IMG/VR virus record: IMGVR_UViG_3300022935_000005
Span: 186,001-250,000 of that record
Origin: a virus
Direction: 5' to 3' (one strand)
Length of the DNA: 64,000 nt
A program made the translations under genes and the position numbers. The notes under the pieces were generated by a model. It did no database searches, was not told where the DNA came from, and saw only the letters and a list, made by a program, of their open reading frames with translations. This document shows positions 7,595 to 61,764 of this stretch, one piece after another. Each line of letters opens with the position of its first letter. Within the stretch, counting starts at the first letter, position 1.

Positions 7595-8470
7595 TTGAAG
7601 AATTTGCAAGACAAGCTTTTTGAAGCAGTACTTAAACGTCTGGTGTCTTCTCGTCTTGAAGAGTGTATCATCGTCGCCGGCGAGACGCAGGGTAAAAATA
7701 TCTTAGCTAAGTCTCGAGACAGAAACTATCATGCGCGTGTCGAGATAATCAGAGACCTATTAGATGACGGGACAGAAGTCGTTTACTTTGAGGATCTTGA
7801 TACTGGGTACGCTGAAGGTATGAACTCCCACGGCTTGGGAGTGGTGAATGCTGCCCTATCCATCAGCGATGACGAGAATGCAGTGAAAGGTAAAGTGAGA
7901 TCAGACGATGGTCCCAGAATGATTCAAGCCTTAAAGCATTCCAGCATAGACGATGCTGTCAAGTCTCTTGTCGGTTATAAGGGCGGCATTAAAGGTCATA
8001 CTTTCGTAGGGACTCCAGACGCAGTTTACAGTATAGAAATGTCATCCGAACACACGCCTGTCATTAATAAGCTTGACCCAACAACAGGTTTCGACGTTCG
8101 AACCAACCACGGTAAAGATCACCATGGTGCTGGGTACACTCCTGACAGACGCCCAAAAGATTACATGTCTTCTAAGATTAGAAAGGCTCAAGCAGAAGTG
8201 GAGCTAGCTGGAGTCAATGATTTTGATGAAGTCGCTCCTGCTTTAGCGAAGCAACACTTTGATCACGACTCAAATGATAACATGCTTCGTAGAGTACCAG
8301 ACAAAGCCGGGATGGTAACGACGAGTCAAGTGGCGATGCATCTTCCAAAAAGAGAGTTCGTATTCTACTACTTCCCAAACGAATGCGATTTTGAGGGCAT
8401 CGTCGATAAAACACCTGATGATTATGAACCCAAGATCAACGTTCGTGTCGTTCGCCGCGACGAGAAGTAG
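7595..8470 (+). CDS. Ntn-hydrolase, C45/acyltransferase-like, with N-terminal tag
   Basis: A 291-residue protein. From residue 24 it matches the C45/choloylglycine-hydrolase style Ntn fold: Cys24, then KSRDRNY near 39-45 (GRNxD region) and GMNSHGLGVVNAALS near 79. In this family the catalytic Cys must be exposed as the new N-terminus by cleavage. Here Cys24 directly follows RLEE at the end of an amphipathic leader (MKNLQDKLFEAVLKRLV), so removal of the leader after an L-x-E motif would activate it. Start is TTG after AATAGGAG. Substrate (an amide or peptide bond) unknown. Confidence 0.7.
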   Translation: MKNLQDKLFEAVLKRLVSSRLEECIIVAGETQGKNILAKSRDRNYHARVEIIRDLLDDGTEVVYFEDLDTGYAEGMNSHGLGVVNAALSISDDENAVKGKVRSDDGPRMIQALKHSSIDDAVKSLVGYKGGIKGHTFVGTPDAVYSIEMSSEHTPVINKLDPTTGFDVRTNHGKDHHGAGYTPDRRPKDYMSSKIRKAQAEVELAGVNDFDEVAPALAKQHFDHDSNDNMLRRVPDKAGMVTTSQVAMHLPKREFVFYYFPNECDFEGIVDKTPDDYEPKINVRVVRRDEK

Positions 8471-8514
8471 AAGCGTAAAGTACATCTGGATGATTCTTCT
8501 TATAATACTAAAGG

Positions 8515-9258
8515 ATGGAAAAGAAGATTAAGAAAGTGGTGGCGTTTGATTTTGACGACACCTTGGCCGTTACGAACTCACACGTAGGGATAAGGTCTAA
8601 TTTACTCGAGAATGCTTTCACCATTGCATCTCGTCTCGGATTAGATATCGCCTCCCGAGACGAAGACTGGATCTGGGTTAACTCGACCAACTACGAGACT
8701 TTTCTGTCTTTTTCTAGTGTGTCGATATCTGATTTTGAATATGATTATTCAGAAACAATGGCAGTAGATTTAGATTCAGTGTCCCCAATCCCTTCAATGA
8801 TTATACAGTTGAAGGAATATCTCGCAGATCCCGATTGTTTGGTAATAATCTTGACGGCAAGGGCAGGCTACACTGACGTCTGGAGTCCTGTGAATAAGTG
8901 TGTAATTCCCTCCACAAACAGAGAGGGTATCGCTTCGTTCCTTAATTCACAAGGAATTATCATTCCTGATCACCACATCCATACCGTAGGTGATGTAGCT
9001 GCTGAAGGTGGTCTTACATCAGTGGCTAAGGCGAATGTTTTATCTCATTATGCGATCGCCTACCAACCTGAGGAAATCATATTTTATGATGACAGCGAGA
9101 GAAATATCGCTCGCGCGTCCAAGATACACTTGAGAGAAGGTGTAAATTCCAGGATCACGCTAAACTACGTAAAAGACGGTCATGTCGCACGTTCCGTCCA
9201 GAGCAATAAAGGGTTAAAACAGTGGTTGTACCGCATATTTAAGACTATGCTGGAGTAA
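8515..9258 (+). CDS. HAD-superfamily phosphatase
   Basis: A 247-residue HAD hydrolase. AFDFDDTLAVT at residues 10-20 supplies the catalytic Asp pair, LTARAGY motif II, and FYDDSERN motif IV. The enzyme is related to the tagged HAD protein at 14525-15073 (FDFDDTLAVT in both), but here no amphipathic tag precedes the catalytic domain. Possible roles are nucleotide 5'/3' phosphatase. A stop-start overlap of one base joins it to the next gene. Confidence 0.8.
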   Translation: MEKKIKKVVAFDFDDTLAVTNSHVGIRSNLLENAFTIASRLGLDIASRDEDWIWVNSTNYETFLSFSSVSISDFEYDYSETMAVDLDSVSPIPSMIIQLKEYLADPDCLVIILTARAGYTDVWSPVNKCVIPSTNREGIASFLNSQGIIIPDHHIHTVGDVAAEGGLTSVAKANVLSHYAIAYQPEEIIFYDDSERNIARASKIHLREGVNSRITLNYVKDGHVARSVQSNKGLKQWLYRIFKTMLE

Positions 9259-10067
9259 TGCCTGTGAAAGACCTGAGAAAACTAGTTTCCCTGCTTTTAG
9301 AAGAAGGGTACCAAAGCCATACTTTCGAGCCCGTAGTTGGTGATATTGTTGCCAATGATAACCCAAACTGTAAGCATCGAGGATCGATTGGCAGAGTCCT
9401 AACCATCCAAGCTCTGGATAATGACCAGGGAAAGACGGCGTCTTACGAATGCTTAAACTCTGGAGATGAGTGGGAAGAAGGTGATGTTTTAACAAAGACG
9501 CTCGATCAGTTGGTACCTGCTGTCTCAAAAGACTTCGCGTATCATATGACGAATGGTCTAGGCATGACTGAATCGATATATCGCCCCGGTTCCAGAGCTT
9601 TTTTTGACCTCGTAAGAGAGTTTCGAGTTTTGTCTCACAGAGGAGCCTACTCACCCTCCTACTTCGAGTCGTACTATCTTTTTGAGACTGACTTGGGCGA
9701 ATATGGTATGTATGATGGTCACCCGGTACCGCTTGACTGGCCAATGCCAGATGAAGACCTTTTCGAAGCAGAATATAAGGGCCGGGATGTCGACCTGAAT
9801 TCTCCTATGAGATCTTCTGGGCCTAAGAAGTACAAGGTCTACACCAAGAATGATAAGGGTAACGTTATCCAAGTTAACTTTGGAGACGCCAAGGGTGGGT
9901 TATCAGCAAAGATGGACGATGATGATGCCCGAGCGAACTTTGCTTCTCGGCACAATTGTGATAGTAAAGCAAAGGAAGATAAGACCAAGCCAGGCTACTG
10001 GTCCTGTCGGCTGCCCAGGTACTGGAAAGAGCTTGGGTTTAAGAAGAATAGTTATAGATTTTGGTAG
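9258..10067 (+). CDS. tagged protein with conserved phage C-terminal domain
   Basis: A 269-residue protein. The first 16 residues (MPVKDLRKLVSLLLEE) form an amphipathic helix ending in an L-x-E motif, like the tags of its neighbours. The last ~90 residues (KKYKVYTKNDKGNVIQVNFG ... ARHNCDSKAKEDKTKPGYW region) match a domain I know as a C-terminal module of many large marine-phage proteins, with a conserved Cys pair and RxW residues. Middle part unknown. Probably packaged or structural (inference). Confidence 0.6.
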   Translation: MPVKDLRKLVSLLLEEGYQSHTFEPVVGDIVANDNPNCKHRGSIGRVLTIQALDNDQGKTASYECLNSGDEWEEGDVLTKTLDQLVPAVSKDFAYHMTNGLGMTESIYRPGSRAFFDLVREFRVLSHRGAYSPSYFESYYLFETDLGEYGMYDGHPVPLDWPMPDEDLFEAEYKGRDVDLNSPMRSSGPKKYKVYTKNDKGNVIQVNFGDAKGGLSAKMDDDDARANFASRHNCDSKAKEDKTKPGYWSCRLPRYWKELGFKKNSYRFW

Positions 10068-10073
10068 GGGATT

Positions 10074-10856
10074 ATGAGACCATTTAAACAAGTCACGATA
10101 TCAGAGGGCGTTTTTGTTAGGGAGTTTTCTGGCGATGTAGACTCAGAAGAGCTCGTCTGGCACCGTGATCAAGAAGACAGACTTATTACGGTGACCGAGT
10201 CTGCTGGCTGGAAGATTCAGCGTGATAATGAGATGCCCGTGGAGATGAAGTCTGGAGATCAATTCTTTATTCCTGCCCTCGAGTGGCACAGGGTCATCAA
10301 GGGCACCGGAAGTTTGTTGATTGAAGTCGACACCAAGGCCGCGCATCCAAGACAGTACGGGGCATCTCAGGGCTCGAAGCGTGATAAACAGCTTGACCAG
10401 ACCAAGAAGGATCTAGAGAAAGCAAAGCAACTTCGTAAGGACGGAAAATCAAAGCAAGCTGATGAGCTTGAGAAAAGAGCATATGCCCGCCGGGACCGCA
10501 TGGAAAAGCAACAAAGAGAAAAGAAAGGGTTCGAAAACACTCCTCGTTCCGATACCAAGAAAGAGTCAATCGATAACGACGATGCAGTTTTAAGAGCTTT
10601 TGTGGAAGAGCTTCTTCTTTCTGAGAAGAAGACGAAAATGTCTAAGAAGACAGAAAAGGCTTTGGAGAAAAAAGCGAAAGAAAAGGGATACACTCTTGGA
10701 TCTGTCAAACAGGAATACAGGAAGGGTCTCGGCGCTTATTATAGCAGCGGGTCTCGAAAAGGAATGACTGCACATCAGTGGGCCATGGCAAGAGTCAATT
10801 CAGCGACTCCCTCTAAGTCTTGGGCTGTTGTTAAGAAATCGAAGGCAAAGAAATGA
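10074..10856 (+). CDS. cupin-like domain, internal tag, DUF5824-like C-terminus
   Basis: A 260-residue three-part protein. Residues ~20-90 form a cupin-like beta-barrel (VWHRDQEDRLITV ... GDQFFIPALEWHRVIKG) seen in marine myophages. Residues ~100-165 are highly charged and probably coiled coil. Then DDAVLRAFVEELLLSEKK is a tag-like helix with L-S-E, and the C-terminus (KQEYRKGLGAYYSSGSR, AHQWAMARVNS) is a small domain found as a module in phage head or tail proteins. The order suggests a polyprotein cut at the internal tag. Confidence 0.6.
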   Translation: MRPFKQVTISEGVFVREFSGDVDSEELVWHRDQEDRLITVTESAGWKIQRDNEMPVEMKSGDQFFIPALEWHRVIKGTGSLLIEVDTKAAHPRQYGASQGSKRDKQLDQTKKDLEKAKQLRKDGKSKQADELEKRAYARRDRMEKQQREKKGFENTPRSDTKKESIDNDDAVLRAFVEELLLSEKKTKMSKKTEKALEKKAKEKGYTLGSVKQEYRKGLGAYYSSGSRKGMTAHQWAMARVNSATPSKSWAVVKKSKAKK

Positions 10857-11221
10857 AAGTTACAAAAACACATTTGAAGCAGCTGATTGAAACAGCGGTT
10901 TTAAAGGAACAAGTTAGGGGATTGCTCATAGAGCGGATGTCTGTGGCAACAGTTAGTGACATCACAAGATTTAGACCATCGATAGAAGAGTGGGCTGAAG
11001 TTCTTGTGGATGAACTACAGAAAAAAGCTGAGAGGATGAAGGGGCTTGATGATAAAAGGCGGAATAGCATTATTACTATGCTGGTTGATGCAGTCGCCAA
11101 GTCTTTGATCAGCTCGACAGGTTCGATGACGGTCTCTAGTCTTGAGCGACAGAAAAAAGACAAAGAAGAAGAACAATACAAAAAGATGAGAGACTCAAGG
11201 CGTTACGGATATAGCGGATAA
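10853..11221 (+). CDS. small tagged protein
   Basis: A 122-residue helical, charged protein beginning MKVTKTHLKQLIETAVLKEQ, a variant of the MKITKxQLRRIIKEE tag that dominates 52-56 kb. L-K-E at the tag end fits the (L/I)-x-E pattern. The remainder is helical with a Lys/Glu-rich end. It overlaps the previous gene by four bases. Confidence 0.65.
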   Translation: MKVTKTHLKQLIETAVLKEQVRGLLIERMSVATVSDITRFRPSIEEWAEVLVDELQKKAERMKGLDDKRRNSIITMLVDAVAKSLISSTGSMTVSSLERQKKDKEEEQYKKMRDSRRYGYSG

Positions 11222-11227: not shown

Positions 11228-11497
11228 ATGAGAATCACAAGACGACAACTTAGAGACATTATCCGTGAAGCTCTCGAGCTTGATGAAGACGTCCGCAAGC
11301 GCGGAGACGAGTGGTGTGCTTATGTCGATGACAAGCTGACCAAGGCAGAGAAAGAAAACAACCCCAAGAAATATAAGGGTAAGAAGGTCGGAAGTGTCCA
11401 GCGAACCAAGTCAGGCAAAATCAGGATGAAGGCTCGTGCTTGCTACAAATCAAAGAAAAAGGCCAACAATGCAATGGCCGCAGCAATGATGGGATAA
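11228..11497 (+). CDS. small tagged basic protein
   Basis: An 89-residue protein with the tag MRITRRQLRDIIREALEL. The remainder is basic (PKKYKGKKVGSVQRTKSGK, CYKSKKKANNA) with two Cys residues, consistent with nucleic-acid binding. Function unknown; the operon position between tagged genes suggests a packaged protein. Confidence 0.65.
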   Translation: MRITRRQLRDIIREALELDEDVRKRGDEWCAYVDDKLTKAEKENNPKKYKGKKVGSVQRTKSGKIRMKARACYKSKKKANNAMAAAMMG

Positions 11498-11500: not shown

Positions 11501-11845
11501 ATGTCTACTAGCCCGGAGCTTTACACATATCGAGCGTTCGTTAGGAAAGTGTACGATGGGGATACGGTCACAGTTGACGTCGATCTCGGGTGGTCAGTTG
11601 TGCTCAAAGCTCAAAAGATCCGCCTCGTCCGCATTAATGCTCCAGAAGTTCGTGGAGAACAGCGCACGGAAGGTCTAAAATCTAGAGACGCTTTACGAGA
11701 CAAAATCGGAAACAAGTGGGTAAAGATCAAAACTGAAAAGGATAAGAAGGGTAAATTCGGCCGATGGCTCGGAGAGATCTGGCTTGAAGACGAGTGCGTC
11801 AATGATTGGCTTCTCAAGGAAGGTCATGCTGAGGAGTATAAATGA
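11501..11845 (+). CDS. thermonuclease-like nuclease (SNase fold)
   Basis: A 114-residue staphylococcal-nuclease domain. KVYDGDTVTVDVDLG carries the calcium-binding Asp residues, IRLVRINAPEVRG the first catalytic Arg, RTEGLKSRDAL the catalytic Glu region, and KKGKFGRWLGEIW the second catalytic Arg. Short SNase proteins are common in marine phages. No signal peptide or tag, so it probably acts in the cytoplasm. Overlaps the next gene by four bases. Confidence 0.85.
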   Translation: MSTSPELYTYRAFVRKVYDGDTVTVDVDLGWSVVLKAQKIRLVRINAPEVRGEQRTEGLKSRDALRDKIGNKWVKIKTEKDKKGKFGRWLGEIWLEDECVNDWLLKEGHAEEYK

Positions 11846-13137: not shown

Positions 13138-13442
13138 AGCTGTTATCATGGCTCAAACATCGATTAAGCCACAAACTAGAACATTTCTCCCTAGAAAATC
13201 TTAAACGTTTCCTGAAAGAAAACGGTCTCGCGTTTGTTGTTATATTTCTAGCGTGGGAGATTATCGAGGATGTACTTTTCCCGATCCTCTTTACCGTTTT
13301 AGGAACATACGTCCACCCTGTGTTTTACGCAGGTGTTCCAGCAGCTTGGCTCCTTTGTTTACACTGGCTAGCAGTACCACTGATGTGGGGTGCATGGGTA
13401 AAGATTAGAGGAAAAAGGAAAGACAATGAGCCTTCTTCGTGA
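13134..13442 (+). CDS. membrane protein
   Basis: A 102-residue protein with a charged amphipathic first ~30 residues followed by two strong transmembrane helices (around 32-57 and 64-90) and a basic C-terminus. It is coupled by four-base overlap to the previous gene and overlaps the next by 17 bases. Its place in the tagged-enzyme operon is notable; function unknown. Confidence 0.6.
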   Translation: MKLLSWLKHRLSHKLEHFSLENLKRFLKENGLAFVVIFLAWEIIEDVLFPILFTVLGTYVHPVFYAGVPAAWLLCLHWLAVPLMWGAWVKIRGKRKDNEPSS

Positions 13443-13950
13443 ATACATCAAAGAGATCCTAAATGAGGGTGTTGAGTTCCATGAGCTTGATTCGCCCTTA
13501 ACCTATAATAGATCACGTAACGTGAAGCGCTTGGCATATTGTGATACATCAGTCACCGAACCGCCAGAAGGTCATGACACATATTTCACGGAATATCAGA
13601 GGATGGAAAGATATGGAAAAACCGGCCGGCGTCTGAAGAAGCCACGAAAAGGTGAGCTAATCCCAGGAGTTTCGAATGTTTGTGTTATCGGCTTTCTTGA
13701 CTATCACCACTACGGTAAAACTGCAGAAGGAAAGGACATGTGGTACATTGACTACATGAAGACCCGGGGTGATTCAACAGGTCAAGGCGTTGCCAGTAAA
13801 CTCATAGATGAATTCTTTGAGAGGTACGTCGATCCAGACGGTGGGTACGTTCACTTCGGCAAGATGATGAGAAAAGAGATCGGGCATCTTAAAGACAAGA
13901 TGGCCGAGAAGTACCCTAATGCAGAAGTAATCGGGGCTGTGAATTATTGA
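13426..13950 (+). CDS. tagged GNAT-like acetyltransferase
   Basis: A 174-residue protein beginning with the tag MSLLREYIKEILNE. The segment WYIDYMKTRGDSTGQGVASK fits GNAT motif A (strand, then R/Q-x-x-G-x-G/A loop binding the acetyl-CoA pyrophosphate) followed by helix LIDEFFERY. Substrate is unknown. It starts a run of eight genes that all open with nearly the same peptide and each overlap the next by about four bases. Confidence 0.6.
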   Translation: MSLLREYIKEILNEGVEFHELDSPLTYNRSRNVKRLAYCDTSVTEPPEGHDTYFTEYQRMERYGKTGRRLKKPRKGELIPGVSNVCVIGFLDYHHYGKTAEGKDMWYIDYMKTRGDSTGQGVASKLIDEFFERYVDPDGGYVHFGKMMRKEIGHLKDKMAEKYPNAEVIGAVNY

Positions 13951-14528
13951 TGAGACTACTTCGCGAATACATAAGAGAGCTGCTGAAAGAATCTGTTGAT
14001 CCCAAGATCATGTCAATGATCGATCGTGCAGAAAAGGCTGGCTTCAAGGTCGTTGTTAGGAGTGGTTATACGGCTGTGTACGACCCTAATATCGATGTTT
14101 CAGACTGGTATGAGGGCTATATTGGTCCAGCAAACAGGGTAGCAGGTATATCTTGGAACCCAAGTCCGGGAGCACATGGGCAACCTTGTTCTGGCGCCAA
14201 GGAAGTATCAGTTTCCGGCGCCAAAGAATTCGGGATGGGTCCATTAGCTTATGACGTTGCGATCGAAGCTTCGGGTGGTCTAATGTCTGACAGGCTGGAG
14301 GTTTCGAAAGACGCAAGAAATGTGTGGAAACATTACATGAAGAAGCGACCTGACGTGATAATCCAACAACTTGACAACCTGAAAAACGAGCTCACCCCAG
14401 AAAGAGAAGACAACTGTGATCATCCAGATGGATTTTCGGTTAGCTCACCACTTACAAAAATGTACTCTAAGATTGGAACGCCAGTCATGGATGAGCTGCG
14501 ACGACGAGGGATGTTGGAAGAACAATGA
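13950..14528 (+). CDS. tagged protein, YDVAIE family, paralogue 1
   Basis: A 192-residue protein starting MRLLREYIRELLKE. It is one of three paralogues in this operon (also 15070 and 17508) that share SVDPKIMSM(I/V)DR, GPLAYDVAIEASGGL, a DVIIQQLD segment and a final GTPVMDELRRRGML. The family occurs widely in marine phages as I recall, without a firm function; an acyltransferase-like fold is possible. The first ~55 nucleotides are almost identical among the three, pointing to recent duplication. Confidence 0.65.
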   Translation: MRLLREYIRELLKESVDPKIMSMIDRAEKAGFKVVVRSGYTAVYDPNIDVSDWYEGYIGPANRVAGISWNPSPGAHGQPCSGAKEVSVSGAKEFGMGPLAYDVAIEASGGLMSDRLEVSKDARNVWKHYMKKRPDVIIQQLDNLKNELTPEREDNCDHPDGFSVSSPLTKMYSKIGTPVMDELRRRGMLEEQ

Positions 14529-15073
14529 GACTACTTCGTGAGTATATAAGGGAAATCTTGAGTGAGAACAAGCTGCGTGTCTTCGATTTTGATGACACAC
14601 TTGCTGTCACTGATTCCATGATTATACTTACTAAAGCGACGGGTGAGCAGATAAAGCAGACTCCTGGAGAGTGGGCCATATACATACCTGAACCCGGCGA
14701 TGAGTTCGATTACAGCGAGTTCGGCGGCGAGTTAATGAACCCTCGAGAAATCAAAGACTACATGAATATCCTCCGCCGCGTTTTGGGAGCAGGTACAGAC
14801 GGTCGCAAAGCTGTGATCTTAACTGCTCGTGCTGAAGTTGCTCGACAGGGCATCATTAACTTTTTACAAGACATTGGTCTCAACGTAAACGACATTGAGA
14901 TTGTAACGCTTGGTGAATCCGACCCACAATTTAAGGCGCGATGGATTGAAGACAAGATAAATAGCGGTTATGACGATGTGTATTTTGTCGATGACTCTGA
15001 TAAAAATATAGCGGCTGTGCAAGCGCTAGCTGTGAAATATCCCAATATAAAGTTGAGGACACAACTGGTATGA
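14525..15073 (+). CDS. tagged HAD-superfamily phosphatase
   Basis: A 182-residue HAD hydrolase fused directly to the tag MRLLREYIREILSE. The catalytic motif RVFDFDDTLAVTDS follows after only three residues, LTARAEV is motif II and FVDDSDKNI motif IV. The catalytic domain is a homologue of the tag-less protein at 8515-9258, so the tag is an addition to an otherwise complete enzyme. Likely a nucleotide or polynucleotide phosphatase. Confidence 0.78.
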   Translation: MRLLREYIREILSENKLRVFDFDDTLAVTDSMIILTKATGEQIKQTPGEWAIYIPEPGDEFDYSEFGGELMNPREIKDYMNILRRVLGAGTDGRKAVILTARAEVARQGIINFLQDIGLNVNDIEIVTLGESDPQFKARWIEDKINSGYDDVYFVDDSDKNIAAVQALAVKYPNIKLRTQLV

Positions 15074-15687
15074 AACTATTGCGCGAATACATAAGAGAGC
15101 TACTGAAAGAATCTGTTGACCCCAAGATCATGTCAATGATTGACAGAGCTGAAGCTGCAGGTTACAAAGTCAGACTGTTTGTGGTCCCAAAGCAGGGAGG
15201 ATCTGTCAGGTTGGTTGAACCCGGTGACAAACCTCTACGACTGGACGGCAAAAACGCAATAGGTTCGGTTGAATGGAGAAAACCAAAGTTCAGCGATCAT
15301 GGCAATTGCTCAGGCGGACAAAGCGTAGGTTGGTCTGAAGCTGATGGTGGATTCGGGCCGCTGTTATATGATGTTGCGATCGAAGCATCAGGCGGTTTAA
15401 TGCCCGATAGATTCGAAGTATCCGGTGAGGCAGAGGCAGTGTGGGATAGATACATGAACTCTCGTTCTGATGTTATTGTTCGCCAGCTGGATATCTTACC
15501 TGACTACGAAGAACCACAGATCACCCCCGACAATCCCAACGATGATTGCAGCCAAGTTCCAGCGCACGACATGCTGAAGGACAAGTGGCATACATCTTCC
15601 CTCAGCAAGATATACAGCAAGTCAGGTACTCCCGTTATTGATGAACTGATCAAGCGCGGCATGTTGATAGATAATAGGACAGTGTGA
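15070..15687 (+). CDS. tagged protein, YDVAIE family, paralogue 2
   Basis: A 205-residue relative of 13950-14528, with the same tag (MKLLREYIRELLKE), the shared VDPKIMSMIDRAEAAGYK, GPLLYDVAIEASGGL and C-terminal GTPVIDELIKRGML. The middle is more divergent, with acidic insert DNPNDDCSQ. Conservation of two Cys residues (GNCSGG and DDCSQ) across the three copies may mean a structural or metal site. Function unknown. Confidence 0.65.
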   Translation: MKLLREYIRELLKESVDPKIMSMIDRAEAAGYKVRLFVVPKQGGSVRLVEPGDKPLRLDGKNAIGSVEWRKPKFSDHGNCSGGQSVGWSEADGGFGPLLYDVAIEASGGLMPDRFEVSGEAEAVWDRYMNSRSDVIVRQLDILPDYEEPQITPDNPNDDCSQVPAHDMLKDKWHTSSLSKIYSKSGTPVIDELIKRGMLIDNRTV

Positions 15688-16049
15688 TGAATCTACTGCG
15701 CGAGTACGTAAGGGCTTTGCTTACTGAAAAGACTATCGCCATTGGCCAATGTTATCCCCATGCGATCAAGATGGCTCAACAGTCATCTGATGAAGAGTGG
15801 GATGATCTAGACAAGTTCAAGGTGGTCCACGGAAAAGTGACGAACAAATGGAATGATGAGTCATATGAGCATGCTTGGGTTGAAAAGGGTGACATGATAT
15901 TCGACTGGCAAACACACGTAACAAAGCCAGAAGGGATTCCAAAAGCTGTGTACTACGATAACTTCCAACCTGAAGCTTATGAAGAATACACTGCTGAAGA
16001 AGCTATAATCAATTGTACTAAGTCAGGGCAAGCGGGGCCTTGGAGATGA
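15687..16049 (+). CDS. tagged papain-like cysteine hydrolase candidate
   Basis: A 120-residue protein with tag MNLLREYVRALLTE. After it the pattern C22YPHA...VVHGKV...HAWVEKGDMIFDWQ suggests a Cys-His-Asp catalytic set as in small papain-like/transglutaminase folds (C, then HAWxE, then D). The domain begins only seven residues after the tag. Peptidase or deamidase activity is inferred from the motif spacing only. Confidence 0.5.
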   Translation: MNLLREYVRALLTEKTIAIGQCYPHAIKMAQQSSDEEWDDLDKFKVVHGKVTNKWNDESYEHAWVEKGDMIFDWQTHVTKPEGIPKAVYYDNFQPEAYEEYTAEEAIINCTKSGQAGPWR

Positions 16050-16552
16050 ACCTGCTTCGCGAATACATAAGAGAGTTACTGACCGAGGAATCTACTACTG
16101 TTTCTCTACACAGAGGGTCAACTGAAGATTACTTCAGAGTGAATTTCAGCGTGGACGGTAGAATGGTTGGTTATGCAGAGGTCAACTCAACTCGTAGGTA
16201 CTCGAACTGCCAAGAAAATGTTATGGAACTTGAACAATCTCCAGAGTACATTGAAGCCAAAGAACGGCACGAGGCGACAAGCAAGTGGAGCTGGTCACCA
16301 AAGATGTACGTTACGAATAACGTCTGGATCCCCAACGAAGCTGACAGAGGGAAAGGTTACGGTAAGTTGATATATCAGGCAGCCATTGACCAGGCAATTC
16401 AATACGCAAGGTCTAGCGGTGGTGTGTTTATCGGTTCGGACGCATGCGATTCTGCCGGTTCCACCTCAGCTGATGCGGGCCGTGTATGGAGTTCACTGGG
16501 ACAACAGTTCGGTGCTAGCTCAGGCCAACTGATATTCGTGAGGACAAACTAA
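16046..16552 (+). CDS. tagged GNAT acetyltransferase
   Basis: A 168-residue protein with tag MNLLREYIRELLTE. The segment VWIPNEADRGKGYGKLIYQA is a clear GNAT motif A (R-G-K-G-Y-G). A Cys/Ser-rich C-terminal part is unlike standard GNATs. A TTG six bases upstream is possible, but the ATG matches the tag consensus of the neighbours. Target unknown. Confidence 0.7.
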   Translation: MNLLREYIRELLTEESTTVSLHRGSTEDYFRVNFSVDGRMVGYAEVNSTRRYSNCQENVMELEQSPEYIEAKERHEATSKWSWSPKMYVTNNVWIPNEADRGKGYGKLIYQAAIDQAIQYARSSGGVFIGSDACDSAGSTSADAGRVWSSLGQQFGASSGQLIFVRTN

Positions 16553-17511
16553 TGAACCTACTCCGCGAGTACATAAGAGAGCTGCTGTTAAAAGAAGTCA
16601 AGTCCTCTGAACTTCCATGGGCAGAACTGTCTGATATTTTACGTAAAAAATTTCCTGGGTTTGGCGAAGAAGTAGAGATGCCGGCAGGAGGGAAACGTAA
16701 GCCTTTCGAGATAGAGCAGAGGACGGTGGCAGATAGGGGTCCCCAGAGATTGGCTAGCTTTACCATCGGATATGGTGACTTCTCCTACGATAAGCCTGCC
16801 ACTAAATTCTCTGACGCTGATTTAGACGCTGTCGTTGATGAGATCGATAAGTGGGCTGCTAATTTTGGATTACATGTGGCAAGAGACCAACTCGCCATGA
16901 ATAGCAATATCGCAATGCTCAAAGTCGGGCTGATGGATCTGGAGACAGACGAAGTCGAGAAACCAGCGAAACTATATCATGTAACAGATCCTGTGACAGC
17001 TGAGACGATTCTCTCGCAAGGTTTAGAACCTCAGTCAGCTAGACGGCGAGGCAAGGCTGGAAAAGCAGGTGATATGATGGGTGCAGCAGGGAGAAGTTAC
17101 CCTGGCAGAATATTCATGTTCACAGATGCACAGACTGCCCTCGCTAGAGCTTCGAAGACTGCAAAGATTATGCATAGGCTTTCCTTTGTTAGGGATGTCT
17201 TAGAAGACGAAGCAGAGTACGAGAAGGGCGCCTCTCAAACAATCGGTAAGTCAGAAACCCCAGTTGTTTTAGAGATTGACGGATCTGCTGTCGGTAAAGT
17301 AATGGCAGATCCAGATTTTGAGATGGGTAAGGGTGCCGTATTCTCAACAGATGCAGTTCCACCATCTGCGATATCGAAGTATAAAGATGTAGACAGGGGC
17401 AGCTTCGAATACGATTGGCGAGATAACTATAAAGTAAGAGAGATGCTCAGAAGTGATTATGGCGGCACAATGTCAAAAATCAAAGCATGGGAGCAGAGCC
17501 AAGGATTATGA
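16552..17511 (+). CDS. tagged ADP-ribosyltransferase-fold candidate
   Basis: A 319-residue protein with tag MNLLREYIRELLLKE. In the C-terminal half, KLYHVTDPVTAETILSQGL, then YPGRIFMFTDAQTALARA and PVVLEID resemble the H-Y strand, loop and third motif of ART-type or RNA 2'-phosphotransferase-like folds (Y/LYHVT... IL..GL.P). T4 Alt, an ADP-ribosyltransferase, is packaged and cleaved in the head, which makes this call attractive, but I cannot identify the catalytic Glu. The N-terminal ~140 residues are unknown. Confidence 0.5.
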   Translation: MNLLREYIRELLLKEVKSSELPWAELSDILRKKFPGFGEEVEMPAGGKRKPFEIEQRTVADRGPQRLASFTIGYGDFSYDKPATKFSDADLDAVVDEIDKWAANFGLHVARDQLAMNSNIAMLKVGLMDLETDEVEKPAKLYHVTDPVTAETILSQGLEPQSARRRGKAGKAGDMMGAAGRSYPGRIFMFTDAQTALARASKTAKIMHRLSFVRDVLEDEAEYEKGASQTIGKSETPVVLEIDGSAVGKVMADPDFEMGKGAVFSTDAVPPSAISKYKDVDRGSFEYDWRDNYKVREMLRSDYGGTMSKIKAWEQSQGL

Positions 17512-18059
17512 AACTACTACGCGAATACATAAGAGAGCTACTGAAAGAATCTGTTGATCCCAAGATCATGTCAATGGTTGATAGACTCGAAGCGGACGGG
17601 GGATATGTTAGAATTAGCAAGAACGCTGCAAGAGTTATTATTGATGGACACAATGTCGCGTTTGTCCAATTCGAAACACCGGGAGTTTGGTCCAAAGGTG
17701 AGTGTTCGGGCGCGAAAATAGTATCTTACTCTGAAGCGGAAAGAAGTTACGGTCCTTTAGCATATGATATCGCCATTGAAGCAACAGGCGGACTTGCACC
17801 AGATCGCGAAGAAGTTTCAGGAGATGCAAAAAACGTTTGGTCTTACTACGAAAAGAATAGACCTGATGTAACAATCGCCCAGCTAGATGATGAAAACAAT
17901 ATGTTGACCCCTGACGGTGGAGACAATTGCAATCAGAAGTCTGCCATGCTGGATGCAGAAAGTTACCACTTTGATAGATCACCGCTCAGTAAGGTATACA
18001 GGAAGTCAGGTACGCCCGTTATAGATGAGTTGCGGAAACGAGGGATGTTGAAGGAATGA
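17508..18059 (+). CDS. tagged protein, YDVAIE family, paralogue 3
   Basis: A 183-residue relative of 13950-14528 and 15070-15687: tag MKLLREYIRELLKE, then SVDPKIMSMVDRLEADGG, GPLAYDIAIEATGGL and GTPVIDELRKRGML. I place the start at the ATG overlapping the previous stop rather than at an upstream ATG, because the tag then begins exactly as in its paralogues. Function unknown. Confidence 0.65.
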   Translation: MKLLREYIRELLKESVDPKIMSMVDRLEADGGYVRISKNAARVIIDGHNVAFVQFETPGVWSKGECSGAKIVSYSEAERSYGPLAYDIAIEATGGLAPDREEVSGDAKNVWSYYEKNRPDVTIAQLDDENNMLTPDGGDNCNQKSAMLDAESYHFDRSPLSKVYRKSGTPVIDELRKRGMLKE

Positions 18060-20412: not shown

Positions 20413-20483
20413 TACAGTTTAACCTGTAATCCTCCACCTGGTCCGCATATTTATTATTGTTGTTTGATCTTAAGGATTGTCTT

Positions 20484-52541: not shown

Positions 52542-53078
52542 ATGAGAATCACAAAGAGACAACTTAGAAGAATTATCCGAGAAGCGATTGATGTTGTTGA
52601 TAGAGACACTGGCGAAGTTATGCGCTTTTCTGATGATAGTAGCGACAGCATGGCAGATCTTCCTGAAAAAGCCTGGCCTGACCTGGTAAAGCGGCTTGGG
52701 TTGAGCCCTAAAGACGTGGGTCTTGATGCTGCCGGTAATCAAGGATTTGAGCTAGACCAGAATGAGTTTATACGCCTTGACAACGAGACTCGTGAAAAAG
52801 CCTACAACCGTAAGATGAAAAAACAGGCAGCTGCCTACAAGGCTGATCGGGAAAGATTGGATATCGACAATCTCCTCGAGAGACTCCGCTATTGGGCACA
52901 AGACGCAGCGTCTGATTACATGGCTGACAATCCAGACACCGACCTGCAGGATATCGCCTATGACCTTGCGGACGCTTGGCAATTCGCGTTCGAAGAAGAT
53001 GAACGAGAAGAACTGTTGTGGCACTTTGACGGTGACCTTAACGACCTTAAGATTTTCGCAGCGGAGAGTATGGGATGA
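52542..53078 (+). CDS. tagged protein, MKITK class
   Basis: A 178-residue protein, tag MRITKRQLRRIIREAIDV (I-R-E/A). Rest acidic, helical, with EEDEREELLWHFDGD. A motif of charged coiled coil is visible around 85-105. Function unknown. Confidence 0.65.
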   Translation: MRITKRQLRRIIREAIDVVDRDTGEVMRFSDDSSDSMADLPEKAWPDLVKRLGLSPKDVGLDAAGNQGFELDQNEFIRLDNETREKAYNRKMKKQAAAYKADRERLDIDNLLERLRYWAQDAASDYMADNPDTDLQDIAYDLADAWQFAFEEDEREELLWHFDGDLNDLKIFAAESMG

Positions 53079-53371
53079 AAATCACAAAACGTCAACTACG
53101 AAGAATCATTAAGGAAGAGAAAGCTCGCATTTTGGCTGAGCAACAACTTGATCCTCAAGTTGCCGCCCAAGCTCTTGCGGAGCTAAAGAACGATGGGTGG
53201 TTTAGTATGATACAAACAGCGGCTACTGACGCAGCTGGTGACCTTGAGCAGCTCAGTGATCAGGTTGATGTCAAGTTAATGGACGCCGGCCTGAACGAGC
53301 TTGCCGTAGATATCAGAAGTGTTGTTGAGCTATTGGACAAGATTAGACAAGCAGCGTACGGTCAGAGGTAA
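53075..53371 (+). CDS. tagged protein, MKITK class
   Basis: A 98-residue protein with tag MKITKRQLRRIIKEEKARILAEQ (L-A-E). Helical thereafter (ALAELKNDGWFSMIQTAAT). Four-base overlap with the previous gene. Confidence 0.65.
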   Translation: MKITKRQLRRIIKEEKARILAEQQLDPQVAAQALAELKNDGWFSMIQTAATDAAGDLEQLSDQVDVKLMDAGLNELAVDIRSVVELLDKIRQAAYGQR

Positions 53372-53372: not shown

Positions 53373-53480
53373 ATGATGAAAAAAAAGCTAATGGAGCTGC
53401 AAAAGCTCGCTAGAGATATTCGCGTGAATGTCCAACCGACAGCTGAGCAATCAGCAAGCAAACGAGGGAGTTTCGAATGA
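53373..53480 (+). CDS. very small basic protein
   Basis: A 35-residue frame (MMKKKLMELQKLARDIRV) between two tagged genes, overlapping the next start by four bases. It resembles a shortened tag-like helix. Supported by position and coupling only. Confidence 0.4.
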   Translation: MMKKKLMELQKLARDIRVNVQPTAEQSASKRGSFE

Positions 53481-53932
53481 AAATTACAAAGACGCAACTA
53501 AGACAGATTGTTAGAGAAAGCGCAGCGATGGACGATGCTGTTTATGAGGCTGGCTACAAAGACGCGATGCAAGATCGCCCACATGGTGCTAATGCAGATA
53601 TGCGTGATATGGATCCAAGATCATATGACTACGGTTTCGATAAGGGTACCGCTGACCGCATGGACATGCAGCGACCGCTTGGAACCAGAGGGTTTTACGA
53701 AGGTAAGGTGAGAATCAAAAAGAGCGACCTTCAAAGAATCGTCAAGGAAGAGCTTATGTCTGAAGTCCGGACCGACGCGGACCTTGAAATGGACGCTATG
53801 TGGGACGAACTGTTTCAGGCACTAAAGAACAAAAGCTTCGGACTTGACCACGGTCTAGAAAGAGATGAAATTTACATCATGACAGGTGCTGCTGAGGGCA
53901 TCACGGTCAAGATAATGCGAAGAGGTCGATAA
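53477..53932 (+). CDS. tagged protein with a second internal tag
   Basis: A 151-residue protein with N-terminal tag MKITKTQLRQIVRESAAM and, after about 75 residues, a second tag VRIKKSDLQRIVKEELMSE. Between them YKDAMQDRPHG...DPRSYDYGFDKG, after it an acidic helical domain. The two tags in one protein argue for processing at both. Confidence 0.65.
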   Translation: MKITKTQLRQIVRESAAMDDAVYEAGYKDAMQDRPHGANADMRDMDPRSYDYGFDKGTADRMDMQRPLGTRGFYEGKVRIKKSDLQRIVKEELMSEVRTDADLEMDAMWDELFQALKNKSFGLDHGLERDEIYIMTGAAEGITVKIMRRGR

Positions 53933-54159
53933 TGCGTATTGCAAAGTCAGAGCTTAGAAGAATTATTGCAGAAGAGAGAGCAAAGCTTCAAGAACAGCGC
54001 CGCGGCCCAAGCGAAGCGCAAATAGAAGACGCCGTCTCTGGGATCGAGTTTGAGTTAAACAGACTGTATGACCAAGGGATGGATAACGCTGGCTTGCACA
54101 AAGTGCTCGACCAGATTAAGATTGACATTGACCGTGGATTTGTAGGAGAGCCAAGATGA
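53932..54159 (+). CDS. tagged protein, MKITK class
   Basis: A 75-residue protein with tag MRIAKSELRRIIAEERAKL (I-A-E) and a short helical remainder (EAQIEDAVSGIEFELNRLY). Starts at the last base of the preceding stop. Confidence 0.62.
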   Translation: MRIAKSELRRIIAEERAKLQEQRRGPSEAQIEDAVSGIEFELNRLYDQGMDNAGLHKVLDQIKIDIDRGFVGEPR

Positions 54160-54416
54160 AAATCACAAAGAACCAATTACGAAGAATCATCAAAGAAGAG
54201 CGTGCTAAGCTGCTCAAAGAAGGTGGATATCGTCACCCGAAAACCGGTGAGGATCTGCTTCTTATGTTAAATGACGTCGTCGACAAACTCATGGACGCTG
54301 GTATGGATTTCTACGAGCTTGCTGATGAACTTCGAGGTTTGGCTGATGATGTGGAAAACAGCCAGCCTGAAGAGTCTCCGAAATTTATCGACATGACAGA
54401 TCCAAGGGAGTTGTAA
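54156..54416 (+). CDS. tagged protein, MKITK class
   Basis: An 86-residue protein with tag MKITKNQLRRIIKEERAKLLKE (I-K-E and L-K-E). The rest is acidic and helical (LMLNDVVDKLMDAGMDFYE), similar in style to 52299. Four-base overlap with the preceding gene. Confidence 0.65.
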   Translation: MKITKNQLRRIIKEERAKLLKEGGYRHPKTGEDLLLMLNDVVDKLMDAGMDFYELADELRGLADDVENSQPEESPKFIDMTDPREL

Positions 54417-54805
54417 TGAAAATCACGAAGAGCCAACTAAGAAGAATCATTAAGGAAGAGAAGGCGAAGCTGCTCAAAGAGTATGGCGCTATGAACATGG
54501 AAGCCCTGAGCCCGCTGGTTCAGTTTGGACAGGCGTATGTTGGTCTCGGCGATGCAGTTCAGTCACAGCTGATTGATCTTGTCAATGCACACATCGAAGG
54601 ACGCATCGAAGACGCAGTATATGAGATGAATCCAAATGCACTTGACATGGCGTTCCAGAGATTACAGCAACCCTTATCTGCTCTAGCAAGAGCAGGTAGC
54701 GAAGACGCCGAGGAAGTGATGGATGCCATGGAGGCAGCTGCTGAAATATTCGCAGAGGGCGACGCAGAAGTGGACGCCGATGCACGAGCTGCAGGAGATA
54801 TATAA
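54416..54805 (+). CDS. tagged protein, MKITK class
   Basis: A 129-residue protein, tag MKITKSQLRRIIKEEKAKLLKE. A low-complexity acidic end (EDAEEVMDAMEAAAEIF). Function unknown. Confidence 0.65.
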   Translation: MKITKSQLRRIIKEEKAKLLKEYGAMNMEALSPLVQFGQAYVGLGDAVQSQLIDLVNAHIEGRIEDAVYEMNPNALDMAFQRLQQPLSALARAGSEDAEEVMDAMEAAAEIFAEGDAEVDADARAAGDI

Positions 54806-54806
54806 A

Positions 54807-55124
54807 ATGAAAATCACAAAGAACCAACTTAGAAGAATTATCAAAGAAGAGAAGACAAAACTTCTCGTTGAGATGAACGCTGTGGCAGACGCCGAGCGCT
54901 CCCTGGGTTTGTACGCTAACGCATCCACAGTCGACAAGCTGTCTAGCGCCCTACAAAGTCTTTTGATGGAAGTCGAAACAGGTGCGATTGAAGACGGTCT
55001 TGAAGAAGATGAAGCTGAAGACATGGCAGCGAACGCTGGACTCATGGCAGTCGCTAACGCATTCCAGTCAGTGGGTATGATTGCTGAATACGACGCACTA
55101 TACAGATTACTACAGCGGGGTTAA
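54807..55124 (+). CDS. tagged protein, MKITK class
   Basis: A 105-residue protein, tag MKITKNQLRRIIKEEKTKLL. I use the ATG that begins the tag, one base after the previous stop; the longer upstream-open frame has no site. Helical, Ala- and Glu-rich. Confidence 0.65.
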   Translation: MKITKNQLRRIIKEEKTKLLVEMNAVADAERSLGLYANASTVDKLSSALQSLLMEVETGAIEDGLEEDEAEDMAANAGLMAVANAFQSVGMIAEYDALYRLLQRG

Positions 55125-55130: not shown

Positions 55131-55424
55131 ATGAAAATCACAAAGAACCAACTGCGAAGAATTATCAAGGAAGAGAAAGCGAAGCTTATGAACGAGCAGT
55201 TCAATTTTGCTGCTGCCGATCAAGAGATGATTAAGTGCGCTACACAGATGGGAGCTCTATTGGCAGGCCGGCCTGACGTTGCCACGGCAGTCCGTGATGC
55301 TCTAGCTGCAGGTCCTTTTAAGAAGGGAGCCGAGGCTCTTTTTAAAGCGTATGAGTCTGCACAAGCTGCTGCCGACACAGAGTACATGAGCTTTGGTGCC
55401 GGATACGATGACGACGATTTTTAG
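55131..55424 (+). CDS. tagged protein, MKITK class
   Basis: A 97-residue protein, tag MKITKNQLRRIIKEEKAKL, followed by MNEQFNFAAADQEMI and an acidic C-terminus (GYDDDDF). Function unknown. Confidence 0.65.
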   Translation: MKITKNQLRRIIKEEKAKLMNEQFNFAAADQEMIKCATQMGALLAGRPDVATAVRDALAAGPFKKGAEALFKAYESAQAAADTEYMSFGAGYDDDDF

Positions 55425-55439: not shown

Positions 55440-55901
55440 ATGAAAATCACAAAAAGACAATTACTTAGAATAATCAGAGAAGAAAAGGCCCGCATCGCTG
55501 AGCAGACTGTAGGTGTTGAAGACGTTTCTCAGTCAGAGGATGCGTTCGGTGGTGGAGACGTCGAGGAGGAGATCTTTGTCGATGCAGATGCCGATTCTTT
55601 ACTGAACCAGAACGATGATCCCGGTGAGGTTACCGACATCGAGGTCATACCTGAGCGTGTACGTTTGAAGAGACACCTCCGCAAGATTGTGTCAGAAGTT
55701 GCTGGCGGTGGTGGAGCGCTTCCTCCCGTTGATGACCTCGCTACTAAGCTTGCTAGTGTTGGATCTGAAGAAGCTCTTGACTTTATCCAGCGTGTTCTTG
55801 CCGCTATGTCGCGTAAAGCTGGCGCCTCGGCGGCTCCCGCTGAAGATGCAGTGGTAGAACCACCGGCTCCAATGCCCCCGGTTCCTGACGAAGAAGTTTA
55901 A
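55440..55901 (+). CDS. tagged protein with internal tag-like helix
   Basis: A 153-residue protein with tag MKITKRQLLRIIREEKARIAEQ (I-A-E) and an internal RLKRHLRKIVSEVAGGGG (V-S-E) near residue 77. Between them is a very acidic stretch (GGGDVEEEIFVDADAD); a Pro-rich end (EPPAPMPPVP) closes it. Function unknown. Confidence 0.65.
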   Translation: MKITKRQLLRIIREEKARIAEQTVGVEDVSQSEDAFGGGDVEEEIFVDADADSLLNQNDDPGEVTDIEVIPERVRLKRHLRKIVSEVAGGGGALPPVDDLATKLASVGSEEALDFIQRVLAAMSRKAGASAAPAEDAVVEPPAPMPPVPDEEV

Positions 55902-55925: not shown

Positions 55926-56690
55926 ATGGAAAGCAAAAGCTTACGTCTTATAAGACAACTTATACGCGAATCTCTCCTCGCTGAAGGTGTCTATGATCCG
56001 GGGGTCCTGAAAGCTGTTTTTATGGCTGGCGGACCAGGAAGTGGAAAAAGCTTCACTGCTAAGAAGATCTTTGGTGTACCGAGAGAAGTTGCAGCATACG
56101 CGACAGGTACTGCTAGCGGCTTGAAGCTTGTCAATTCAGATCCAGCATTTGAACATTTCCTCAAGAAAGCGGGTATCGATCCTGCTAGCCTTGGAAAGAT
56201 GTCAAAAGAGGAGTTCGAAGCTGTAACAGTCGGACCCGATAGTCCACGTGGTAAGGCAAAGACTCTCAGGGGCCAAGCTCAAGAACTATATCAGGGCGGC
56301 CGACTAGGGCTAGTCATCGACGGCACTGGAGACGACTTTGAAAAGATTAGTCGGAAGAAAGGTGAGCTTGAAAAGCTTGGGTACGATACCTACATGATTT
56401 TCGTCAACACCTCAGAAGAAGTGGCACTACAAAGAAACAGAGATCGTGAACGCAAGCTTCCTGACGAACTCGTATCTCAGATCTGGGGTGATGTCCAAAA
56501 GAACCTCGGCGCGTTTCAACAACTCTTCGGTTCTGACCGCATCGCGATTATTGACAATACAGAGTACGGTCCAGTTCCAGAAAAAGTCCAGAAAGCCGTT
56601 GACAAGTTCATCTCTCAACCAGTTAAGAATATCATCGGTAAGAAGTGGATTGAGAACGAGCTTCGTATGAAAGACCGCTCTGACAAATAA
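55926..56690 (+). CDS. tagged zeta-toxin-like kinase
   Basis: A 254-residue P-loop kinase. Before it lies the tag MESKSLRLIRQLIRESLLAE (L-A-E). AVFMAGGPGSGKS at 30-42 is Walker A, KLVNSDPAFE and LVIDGTGDDFE suit the zeta/AAA small-kinase pattern, and FVNTSEEVALQRNRDRERK is the Arg-rich lid. Zeta toxins phosphorylate UDP-GlcNAc; the true substrate here is unknown. AGAGGAGG precedes the start. It ends the tag array. Confidence 0.68.
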   Translation: MESKSLRLIRQLIRESLLAEGVYDPGVLKAVFMAGGPGSGKSFTAKKIFGVPREVAAYATGTASGLKLVNSDPAFEHFLKKAGIDPASLGKMSKEEFEAVTVGPDSPRGKAKTLRGQAQELYQGGRLGLVIDGTGDDFEKISRKKGELEKLGYDTYMIFVNTSEEVALQRNRDRERKLPDELVSQIWGDVQKNLGAFQQLFGSDRIAIIDNTEYGPVPEKVQKAVDKFISQPVKNIIGKKWIENELRMKDRSDK

Positions 56691-58414: not shown

Positions 58415-58445
58415 TACTTCGAAACTATTATTTTAAGGGGGCGTC

Positions 58446-58936: not shown

Positions 58937-58938
58937 TC

Positions 58939-58968: not shown

Positions 58969-58991
58969 ATAAATGTTGGTAAGGAGGTCAA

Positions 58992-59587: not shown

Positions 59588-59598
59588 AAGGGAAAATA

Positions 59599-60323: not shown

Positions 60324-61282
60324 CTGCTGACCACGTAGCCGACTTCAACTAGAGCACCGCCACTGGGTATGACTGTGAAAAGCACAGTGTTAGTTGCGAC
60401 GTCGAACGTCCAATCAAGATATTCTGACCCGTCGACAAATACTCTTATTGTCTGTTCTATCGGAGTGTATGACAACGTGATGGATTCATAGGGTTCTATT
60501 TGATCGGTCGCCGCACTGACTCCGGGGGTCCAGTCTTCAGAACATATATCAACGATCGTACCGAACATCAGGTTAGTTGCATCCATGTATCGTACACCAA
60601 CGTCTGAGCTCCCTACGGGAACCTCACACACTGACTGGTCTTCTTCTTGCATAACAATGCTTGCAAGAAAAACGTTCCCGAACCGTCTAGAGGTATACCA
60701 CATCACAAACTCATTAGCTGTAGCGAATGTAGTGCTTTGATCATCTTCATCGCTAACGAAAACAACGAGAAGCGCAGCATCATGTCTCATCCAAGACGCA
60801 GCGTATGGATTATATTGCATATAGTGATATAACGCGTCAAAACCCTCTTCGTCAGCTCCCGTGCCCATCGCCGCGTACATGTCCTCTGCGTCAGTTATTG
60901 TATCACCCGGTACCAGAGGGAACTGCTGTTCCACCTCTGCTTCTTCCGGGTCTGTTGGTATCATTATCAACCGCCAACCAGTTGGGGGTAAAGATAGCAT
61001 CATTTGCTCAATGCCTACCAACAATCGATCTTGGAATTGCTGCATTGATCCGCTAGTATCAATAACCCATATGATATCGACACCATCGACAGCAGAAACC
61101 TGTACAAATGAATCAATCCAAATGTCTGCTTCCTCGATCGGTGTCTCGACTTCGACTGGCACTTCGACGACGACTTCGACTTCGACTGGTACTTCAACAA
61201 CTTTTTCGTATACTAGAGTCTGATCAGAGCCACAGCCGGCGAGCAGTGATATTGATAGGATGATGTGTGGGAAGAGCTTCAT
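60320..61282 (-). CDS. VWA-domain lipoprotein
   Basis: A 320-residue lipoprotein with signal peptide ending LLAGCGSD. The N-terminal mature part has repeated VEVPVEVE units, probably a spacer. VDIIWVIDTSGSMQQF is a VWA MIDAS motif, with FVSDEDDQST as a later part of the site. Sits in the opposite orientation to its neighbours. Envelope-exposed; role unknown. Confidence 0.7.
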   Translation of the reverse strand: MKLFPHIILSISLLAGCGSDQTLVYEKVVEVPVEVEVVVEVPVEVETPIEEADIWIDSFVQVSAVDGVDIIWVIDTSGSMQQFQDRLLVGIEQMMLSLPPTGWRLIMIPTDPEEAEVEQQFPLVPGDTITDAEDMYAAMGTGADEEGFDALYHYMQYNPYAASWMRHDAALLVVFVSDEDDQSTTFATANEFVMWYTSRRFGNVFLASIVMQEEDQSVCEVPVGSSDVGVRYMDATNLMFGTIVDICSEDWTPGVSAATDQIEPYESITLSYTPIEQTIRVFVDGSEYLDWTFDVATNTVLFTVIPSGGALVEVGYVVSS

Positions 61283-61374
61283 TGTGGTCCCTTATTTGTA
61301 ACTATACAGAAGAGAGCTATTTGTGTTTACCTAACACTCAAAGGCGTATATTTATATCTGCAAGGAGTTTGACT

Positions 61375-61764
61375 ATGAAAATAACAGAAAGCAACATCAG
61401 AAAGATAATCAGAGAAGAGCTCTCCTCACTTATGGAGCAGGACGAGGCGAAGCCAAAGAAGCTCGATGATCTTGACTTTAAGTCTGATGACCGAATGGAG
61501 TATGAGAGATGGGCTCGTTCTGCTGGTCACGTTTCTCCTGAAGTCCAATCAACTCTAGTTTCGTATTTCTTAAACCAAAATCTACAGAATGCTCATGACT
61601 TGCACCAGAGGCTCTGTGACGAACTCGGTTTAGACCATGATGCAGTGATGGCGGCTATGGAAAACCGACTAGAAAAAGAAGAAGATCCAGCTGCAGAGGA
61701 ATCTGCTCGAGAGCTCGATCTAGCACGCGTCGCAGAAGCAGTATCTGCAATCTCTAAGCTGTAA
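61375..61764 (+). CDS. tagged protein, MKITK class
   Basis: A 129-residue protein with a divergent tag MKITESNIRKIIREELSSLME (I-R-E, L-M-E). Remaining part acidic and helical (VSPEVQSTLVSYFLNQNLQ). It lies 5 kb from the main array. AAGGAG precedes the ATG; the upstream-open frame is not used. Confidence 0.62.
   Translation: MKITESNIRKIIREELSSLMEQDEAKPKKLDDLDFKSDDRMEYERWARSAGHVSPEVQSTLVSYFLNQNLQNAHDLHQRLCDELGLDHDAVMAAMENRLEKEEDPAAEESARELDLARVAEAVSAISKL

Follow-up and report, generated by a model that had tools for sequence, protein, structure and literature searches.

The stretch of DNA considered here raises the question of why many otherwise unrelated phage proteins begin with the same kinds of short amphipathic helix. 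The window, meaning the whole 64,000-nucleotide stretch, comprises bases 186,001-250,000 of the 280,913-base IMG/VR record IMGVR_UViG_3300022935_000005, and the open reading frames (ORFs) of the entire record were read in pieces. The source genome is that of a 280.9-kb T4-superfamily phage, which is aquatic and infects bacteria. A preliminary description of the window noted two types of N-terminal helix, LLREYIRELLxE and MKITKxQLRRIIKEE (the LLREY and MKITK tags), on proteins with different downstream domains (the cargo), and proposed that these tags target the proteins to the head and are cleaved after (L/I)-x-E. This proposal is supported by the statistics of the site, its avoidance in the cargo, tag swaps, tagged head genes, and a register shared with T4. 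On this sequence evidence, the tags are very probably capsid targeting sequences (CTS) of the T4 kind, serving both head targeting and cleavage after (L/I)-x-E.

There are 26 tagged proteins in the window, including 10 of the LLREY type, 12 of the MKITK type, and four others (at 7595, 9258, 20457, and 55926) whose amphipathic N-termini end in L-x-E. Both main types are indeed carried on the N-termini of proteins with different cargo, and this pattern is genome-wide. Further tags are located on the record at 11-14 kb, 107-110 kb, 137-139 kb, 170-180 kb, and 277-278 kb, and about 40 otherwise unrelated proteins of the phage are tagged in all. The run of LLREY tags previously placed at 8-19 kb exists, but its true extent is 13.4-19.6 kb. 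Two MKITK proteins (54807 and 61375) begin within the longest ORF. Chance occurrence was assessed with a pattern fixed in advance from residues Y4, F7, I8, and E10 of the T4 protein IPIII, namely hydrophobic-x-x-hydrophobic-hydrophobic-x-Glu. Within the first 30 residues, this pattern is present in 59 of 389 ORFs, compared to 21.1 ± 4.1 in shuffled N-termini (an excess of about 38). It is found in 15% of N-termini versus 4-8% of internal segments, and the count is 23 when Asp replaces the final Glu.

Strong constraint is evident at the end of both tag types, as had been suggested by the earlier remark that nearly all tags contain (L/I)-x-E. Among LLREY tags, all 65 non-redundant sequences have [LIVMF]-x-E at positions 11-13. 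The Glu residue is at position 12 in 86% of them, and the remainder shift by one residue while retaining the hydrophobic residue two before the Glu. Because the search pattern ended ahead of this Glu, the count of L-x-E is unbiased. Glu14 is present in 96% of MKITK tags (95% among tags not selected by the search pattern), and Asp is never found in its place. Where E14 is missing, a later [LIMV]-x-E occurs in eight of 12 tags, seven of these at 18/19. Furthermore, a second [LIMVF]-x-E is located at 21/22 in 168 of the 219 MKITK tags with Glu15, versus only 5 of the 97 with Ala, Ser, Gly, or Thr at position 15 (Fisher 1e-35). Asp occupies this second site three times versus 168 for Glu, and the information content drops from 3.5 bits at the Glu to 0.7 one residue later and to no more than 0.2 beyond. 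The conserved element of the tags, as judged from these comparisons, is the predicted (L/I)-x-E cleavage site, and none of this pattern would be expected from an amphipathic helix by itself.

The T4 system provides a functional map for such sequences. T4 gp21 cleaves after L/I-X-E, and the first ten residues of IPIII are sufficient for packaging, with targeting mapped mainly to residues 4 and 7 and processing to residues 8 and 10; Asp at position 10 blocks processing but not targeting (PMC9026906). The N-termini of T4 IPII and IPIII read MKTYQEFIAE/A. In the Glu-anchored alignment made in this analysis, T4 residues 4, 7, 8, and 10 correspond to tag residues 8, 11, 12, and 14, positions that rank with the best conserved in the tags. 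Residues 8, 11, and 12 of the tag are hydrophobic, like residues 4, 7, and 8 of IPIII.

A search of the genome for a gp21-like prohead protease had been proposed as a check, with the absence of such a protease counting against the proposal, and a profile search revealed one. This Peptidase_S77 protein (E 1.3e-26; ORF 106703-107323 of the record) retains the His, Ser, and Asp triad of T4 gp21 on alignment (GECDHP, SSRG, and WDFVSEPS). Its gene resides in a portal-protease-scaffold-capsid block near the gene for the major capsid protein gp23 (E 3e-67), and the order of the block is T4-like, with the protease followed by small head genes, a scaffold-like gene, and the capsid gene. Megablast returned no close named relative. 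The head module was also read in 17 relatives of this lineage. Directly after the protease, or one gene on, is a protein starting MAK..R..LK.LVKECLVEIL.E, in which VKECLVEILxE has the same spacing as LLREYIRELLxE. Next is a short protein that mostly starts ..LTPALLRKLVLQE. The scaffold protein usually starts M..LYKEAIAEA, which corresponds to LYxEAIAE/A, and the capsid protein carries an invariant L(R/K)E just ahead of its conserved core. Self-cleavage of the S77 protease at its own N-terminal L-x-E was considered and rejected, as the site is not conserved across relatives. In two relatives (L152 and L153), the major capsid protein gene is present in two tandem copies.

The tags and the protease frequently occur together. 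Searches of IMG/VR with degenerate DNA patterns yielded 75 stretches with the MKITK tag and 30 with the LLREY tag. S77 is present in 20 of 50 tag-bearing records, in all 13 of those that are at least 140 kb long, and in all 17 tag-bearing IMG/VR records with gp23. In the L155 lineage, tags adjoin the protease, which is 46% identical to that of the source phage. In 257 Gb of prokaryote genomes, the MKITK pattern matched no more than four contigs, each from a metagenome bin, and because of this near absence the tag is judged from its distribution to belong to phages. One of the four (NHDW01000006.1, 305,838 bases; L166, L170, L180) has its own S77. Contigs binned as Methylococcaceae TMED69 and Halobacteriovorax carry tags or S77, are almost surely phage, and may hint at hosts; these contigs are NHDW01000006.1, PBIO01000025.1, and one of 108,871 bases (the last two L167, L169, L181).

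A tblastn search of named phages with a 20-residue tag gave no match, although this query is too short for the method. The cultured Flavobacterium phage vB_FspM_immuto (MW353175.1) encodes S77 and has its own repeated N-termini ending in L/I-x-E, including MENFDLKKFLVENKLTTNSKILKE/N, MKKQILSEQFRRMQKLAGIITE/S, and MKKSQLRQIIKE/A. Two further repeated families in this phage, FDLKKFLVENKLTxNSxxLxE and MKKQILSEQFxRMQxLAGIITE, have the same plan; tag positions include 1803, 103806, 117631, and 118632, as well as 25061 and 111675 (L189-L191). A literature search retrieved no paper mentioning the MKITK motif and no proteomics paper for phage immuto.

Tags are carried by 143 cargo clusters (E 1e-4), and in these Leu-x-Glu is rarer than Leu with another polar residue at the same spacing (ln ratio -0.27, 95% interval -0.49 to -0.08). 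The corresponding value for untagged proteins of the source phage is +0.07 (-0.03 to 0.16). When Val/Phe or Ala is substituted for Leu in the comparison, tagged cargo and untagged proteins are alike.

The tags are also exchanged between orthologous proteins, and different tags on one cargo meet it at L-x-E. For example, the cargo of the protein at 18934 carries at least four other tags among relatives, and the cargo at 20457 carries MKLLREYIRELLNE in L093. The DVRKRG...YVDDKLTK cargo follows MRITRRQLRDIIREALELDE in the window versus MEFELLREFIREALSE in L102, with the same junction and 85% identity. A RelA/SpoT-like HD protein is untagged in the window (5248-5838, minus strand) and tagged in L027 and L109. 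An AlphaFold model for the family at 13950..14528 (pLDDT 75.6, the predicted local distance difference test score) places the tag as a helix of residues 4-15, detached and with pLDDT below 50, ahead of a confident domain.

The sequence itself shows the tags with their (L/I)-x-E constraint, the tag swaps, the protease, and the tagged head genes, and these are consistent with the following mechanism. As the prohead assembles, the amphipathic tag helix would dock each protein into the scaffold core. Once the shell closes, the gp21-like S77 protease would cut behind the (L/I)-x-E that ends the tag, freeing the cargo within the head. Injection would be a natural consequence of head targeting and cleavage, with the packaged cargo leaving with the DNA at infection to act in the host cell. 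The tag might then be regarded as a plug-in module that is moved by recombination among unrelated enzymes, with the MKITK, LLREY, and other families being different sequences that do the same job.

Several points weigh against this interpretation. The avoidance of L-x-E in the cargo is modest, being clear for Leu and not clearly so for Ile, and L-x-E is frequent in amphipathic helices, so a weaker pattern is expected anyway. Because the relatives were fetched by tag, their association with S77 is partly shared ancestry. In addition, the head-gene site carries Asp in the relative L150, and the N-terminal L-x-E of S77 itself is not kept by all relatives.

These points must be weighed together with other explanations for the tags. 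Microcompartment encapsulation peptides are N-terminal amphipathic helices that load unrelated enzymes into the protein shell of a bacterial organelle. The tags have a similar form, and in the model their helix stands apart from the folded cargo, so they might likewise load the head but stay uncut. However, uncut loading leaves unexplained the preference for Glu over Asp, the sliding L-x-E, the second site tied to Glu15, and the avoidance of L-x-E in the cargo, and microcompartment systems are not known to have a prohead protease or an L-x-E constraint. We consider this explanation improbable. The tag could instead direct proteins to the tail, the baseplate, a membrane, or an infection compartment, with L-x-E simply part of the docking helix, as might be imagined from the location of some tagged genes far from the head genes. 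This option is distinctly improbable given that the register of the tags is shared with conserved head-module genes beside the protease and fits the mapped head-targeting residues of T4. Lastly, the shared 5ˊ ends could represent a translation-initiation or recombination cassette whose peptide is a by-product, since the tags clearly move among genes. Yet the codon differences in the LLREY core within the window are 148 synonymous versus 50 non-synonymous, and this excess therefore indicates selection on the peptide. The upstream DNA is also variable, and L-x-E is strict across unrelated tag types, making a cassette very improbable.

The tagged protein at 7595 requires separate consideration. 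Its earlier assignment as an Ntn-hydrolase agrees with a C45-type match to NCBIfam NF040521 (E 1.5e-9; 37.7 bits, below the curated 85) that starts at residue 25. Residues 21-23 are L-E-E, directly before a Cys24 that is invariant in relatives, all of which have [LIM][DE]E-C. Foldseek matches to a model of the protein point almost exclusively to Ntn hydrolases; given its poor quality (pLDDT 53.9), the model served only to show in which direction the matches lie. Chryseobacterium phages MA9V-1 and MA9V-2, which also have S77, encode homologues (34% identity) that start MTSANNNEFLNE/C and MTSADNNAFINE/C (LNE-C and INE-C). Because Ntn enzymes of the C45 kind require a free N-terminal Cys, the prohead cut may switch this enzyme on by exposing its predicted catalytic Cys, in which case head maturation would itself be the activating step. 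However, PurF-type Ntn enzymes self-cleave at Glu-Cys, and the E-C of this protein need not be a prohead protease site. For this protein only, the junction could be an autoproteolytic site as in PurF-type amidotransferases, unrelated to the prohead protease. The family model it matches is named autoproteolytic, and E-C is retained even in the Chryseobacterium phages with their short leader. Against this, the -3 residue is always Leu, Ile, or Met, and the same phages have the S77 protease. We give autoproteolysis somewhat less than an even chance.

Most of the cargo matches no known family, and a PHROGs search gave no function for the cargo proteins. Several functional calls of the preliminary description nevertheless hold. 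The P-loop kinase at 55926 matches Zeta_toxin/AAA (2.6e-9), and the HELVH motif in the protein at 18056 backs its assignment as a zinc peptidase. For the HAD phosphatases, the call stands for the tagged protein at 14525 (DUF2608, 1.6e-6), but the HAD-like protein at 8515 carries no tag. The GNAT calls are weak (0.005-0.006); fold matches of a related family are weak too, but GNATs head their list. The papain-like call at 15687..16049 found no family match. Supported cargo in the window thus comprises the C45-type Ntn hydrolase, the zeta-toxin-type kinase, and the HAD-like protein, and supported cargo in relatives includes an exonuclease, a (p)ppGpp hydrolase-like HD protein, and an ART-PolyVal domain (ART, ADP-ribosyltransferase). 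The RNA 2ˊ-phosphotransferase/ART-like call at 16552 is graded weak, as are the GNATs, and relatives of the former diverse enough for a good fold prediction were not found. Tentatively, the tagged proteins might form an exchangeable effector armoury in which several tag families are borne by dozens of enzymes and head maturation activates at least one of them via its N-terminal Cys. Its possible enzyme classes are ADP-ribosyltransferase-like, GNAT-like, kinase, nuclease, (p)ppGpp-hydrolase-like, phosphatase, and peptidase.

Tagged proteins of the window, with coordinates numbered from its first base
Feature	Coordinates	Strand	Remarks
C45/choloylglycine-type Ntn hydrolase	7595..8470	+	23-residue tag, L-E-E immediately preceding Cys24, predicted nucleophile
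Tagged protein, tag MPVKDLRKLVSLLLEE/G	9258..10067	+	Relatives have LLREY tags on similar cargo
MKITK-type tag without E14, MKVTKTHLKQLIETAVLKE	10853..11221	+	L-x-E moved to 19
MKITK-type tag MRITRRQLRDIIREALELDE/DVRKRG	11228..11497	+	Relative has LLREY-type tag, same cargo, same junction
LLREY tag, E14/G15	13426..13950	+	Weak GNAT match
LLREY tag, GNAT-like cargo family	13950..14528	+	Paralogues at 15070 and 17508; weak GNAT fold matches
LLREY tag, E14/N15; HAD-like phosphatase (DUF2608)	14525..15073	+	Pfam PF11019 1.6e-6
LLREY tag, GNAT-like paralogue	15070..15687	+	Member of the 13950 family
LLREY tag, E14/K15; conserved GQCYPHA...HAWVE cargo	15687..16049	+	Papain-like reading unproven
LLREY tag, E14/E15	16046..16552	+	Weak GNAT match
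LLREY tag, L-x-E slid to 15 (LLLKE/V); RNA 2ˊ-phosphotransferase/ADP-ribosyltransferase-fold-like	16552..17511	+	NCBIfam NF002014 9.6e-5, weak; LYHVT...ILSQGLEP motif
LLREY tag, GNAT-like paralogue	17508..18059	+	Paralogue of 13950 family
LLREY tag, E14/V15; zinc peptidase-like cargo	18056..18904	+	HELVH
LRQFIRQIILE/Q tag (LLREY-type)	18934..19572	+	Same cargo in relatives has at least 4 other tags
Tag STIRTYVRECLLE/S	20457..21305	+	Relative L093 has MKLLREYIRELLNE on same cargo
MKITK tag, IIRE14/A15	52542..53078	+	
MKITK tag, second site LAE22	53075..53371	+	
MKITK tag, IVRE14/S15	53477..53932	+	Internal second tag-like segment RIKKSDLQRIVK (GKVRIKKSDLQRIVK)
MKITK-type tag, IIAE14 and LQE21	53932..54159	+	
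MKITK tag, second site LKE22/G	54156..54416	+	
MKITK tag, second site LKE22/Y	54416..54805	+	
MKITK tag, second site LVE22/M	54807..55124	+	Start within longer ORF
MKITK tag, second site MNE22/Q	55131..55424	+	
MKITK tag, second site IAE21/Q	55440..55901	+	
Tag SLRLIRQLIRE15/S and LAE20/G; zeta-toxin-type P-loop kinase	55926..56690	+	Pfam PF06414 2.6e-9; tagged relatives in L063 and L095
MKITK-type tag, second site LME21/Q	61375..61764	+	Start within longer ORF

Two other proteins are of related interest. Bases 11842-13137 of the window encode a 431-residue protein with several L-x-E sites, which carries an MKITK tag in the relative L095. The cargo at 13426 also occurs as the C-terminal part of longer multi-domain proteins in relatives (ORFs L051:1483, L106:1705, and L092:40), one of which has a hydrophobic segment resembling a pre-toxin, as polymorphic toxins do.

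Among known systems, the closest is the T4 CTS of IPI-III and Alt, which is likewise a short N-terminal peptide with the same hydrophobic register and an L/I-x-E end, is paired with an S77 protease, and precedes unrelated cargo (PMC9026906). An ADP-ribosyltransferase-like cargo is a further probable parallel, as the fold weakly matched by the protein at 16552 is of the activity class of T4 Alt. Unlike T4, the phage described here has other tag sequences, several tag families in one genome, about 40 tagged proteins (many of them enzymes) rather than about four, tag swapping between orthologues, and one cargo with its predicted catalytic residue precisely at the proposed cut. The head ejection proteins of phiKZ and SPN3US are also packaged, and a gp21-related protease cleaves their N-terminal propeptides after x-x-E (PMC10052503, PMC5694885); in the present case, packaging is presumed. 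However, those propeptides are mostly long with S/A-x-E sites, and no short modular tag is shared by dozens of enzymes. Delivery alongside the DNA has likewise been suggested for the ART, GNAT, nuclease, and peptidase domains of phage polyvalent proteins (PMC5512222), but these activities are fused in giant proteins, whereas here they mostly reside in separate small proteins with a common tag. It is well supported by these sequence features that the present system works like the T4 CTS and belongs with it in every feature that can be tested, as a much expanded, modular form.

The extent of the system through the whole genome and many related phages goes beyond the earlier view from a single window. 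If our interpretation is correct, the tags would provide many new means of loading enzymes into phage heads, and the Ntn hydrolase would represent a new way of keeping an enzyme off until the particle matures. In a phage with S77, the injected proteins could then be recognised by an N-terminal helix that ends in L/I-x-E, and such sets are otherwise known for only a few model phages. Many uncharacterised phage proteins from aquatic samples would thereby gain a delivery route, and hence a role in early infection.

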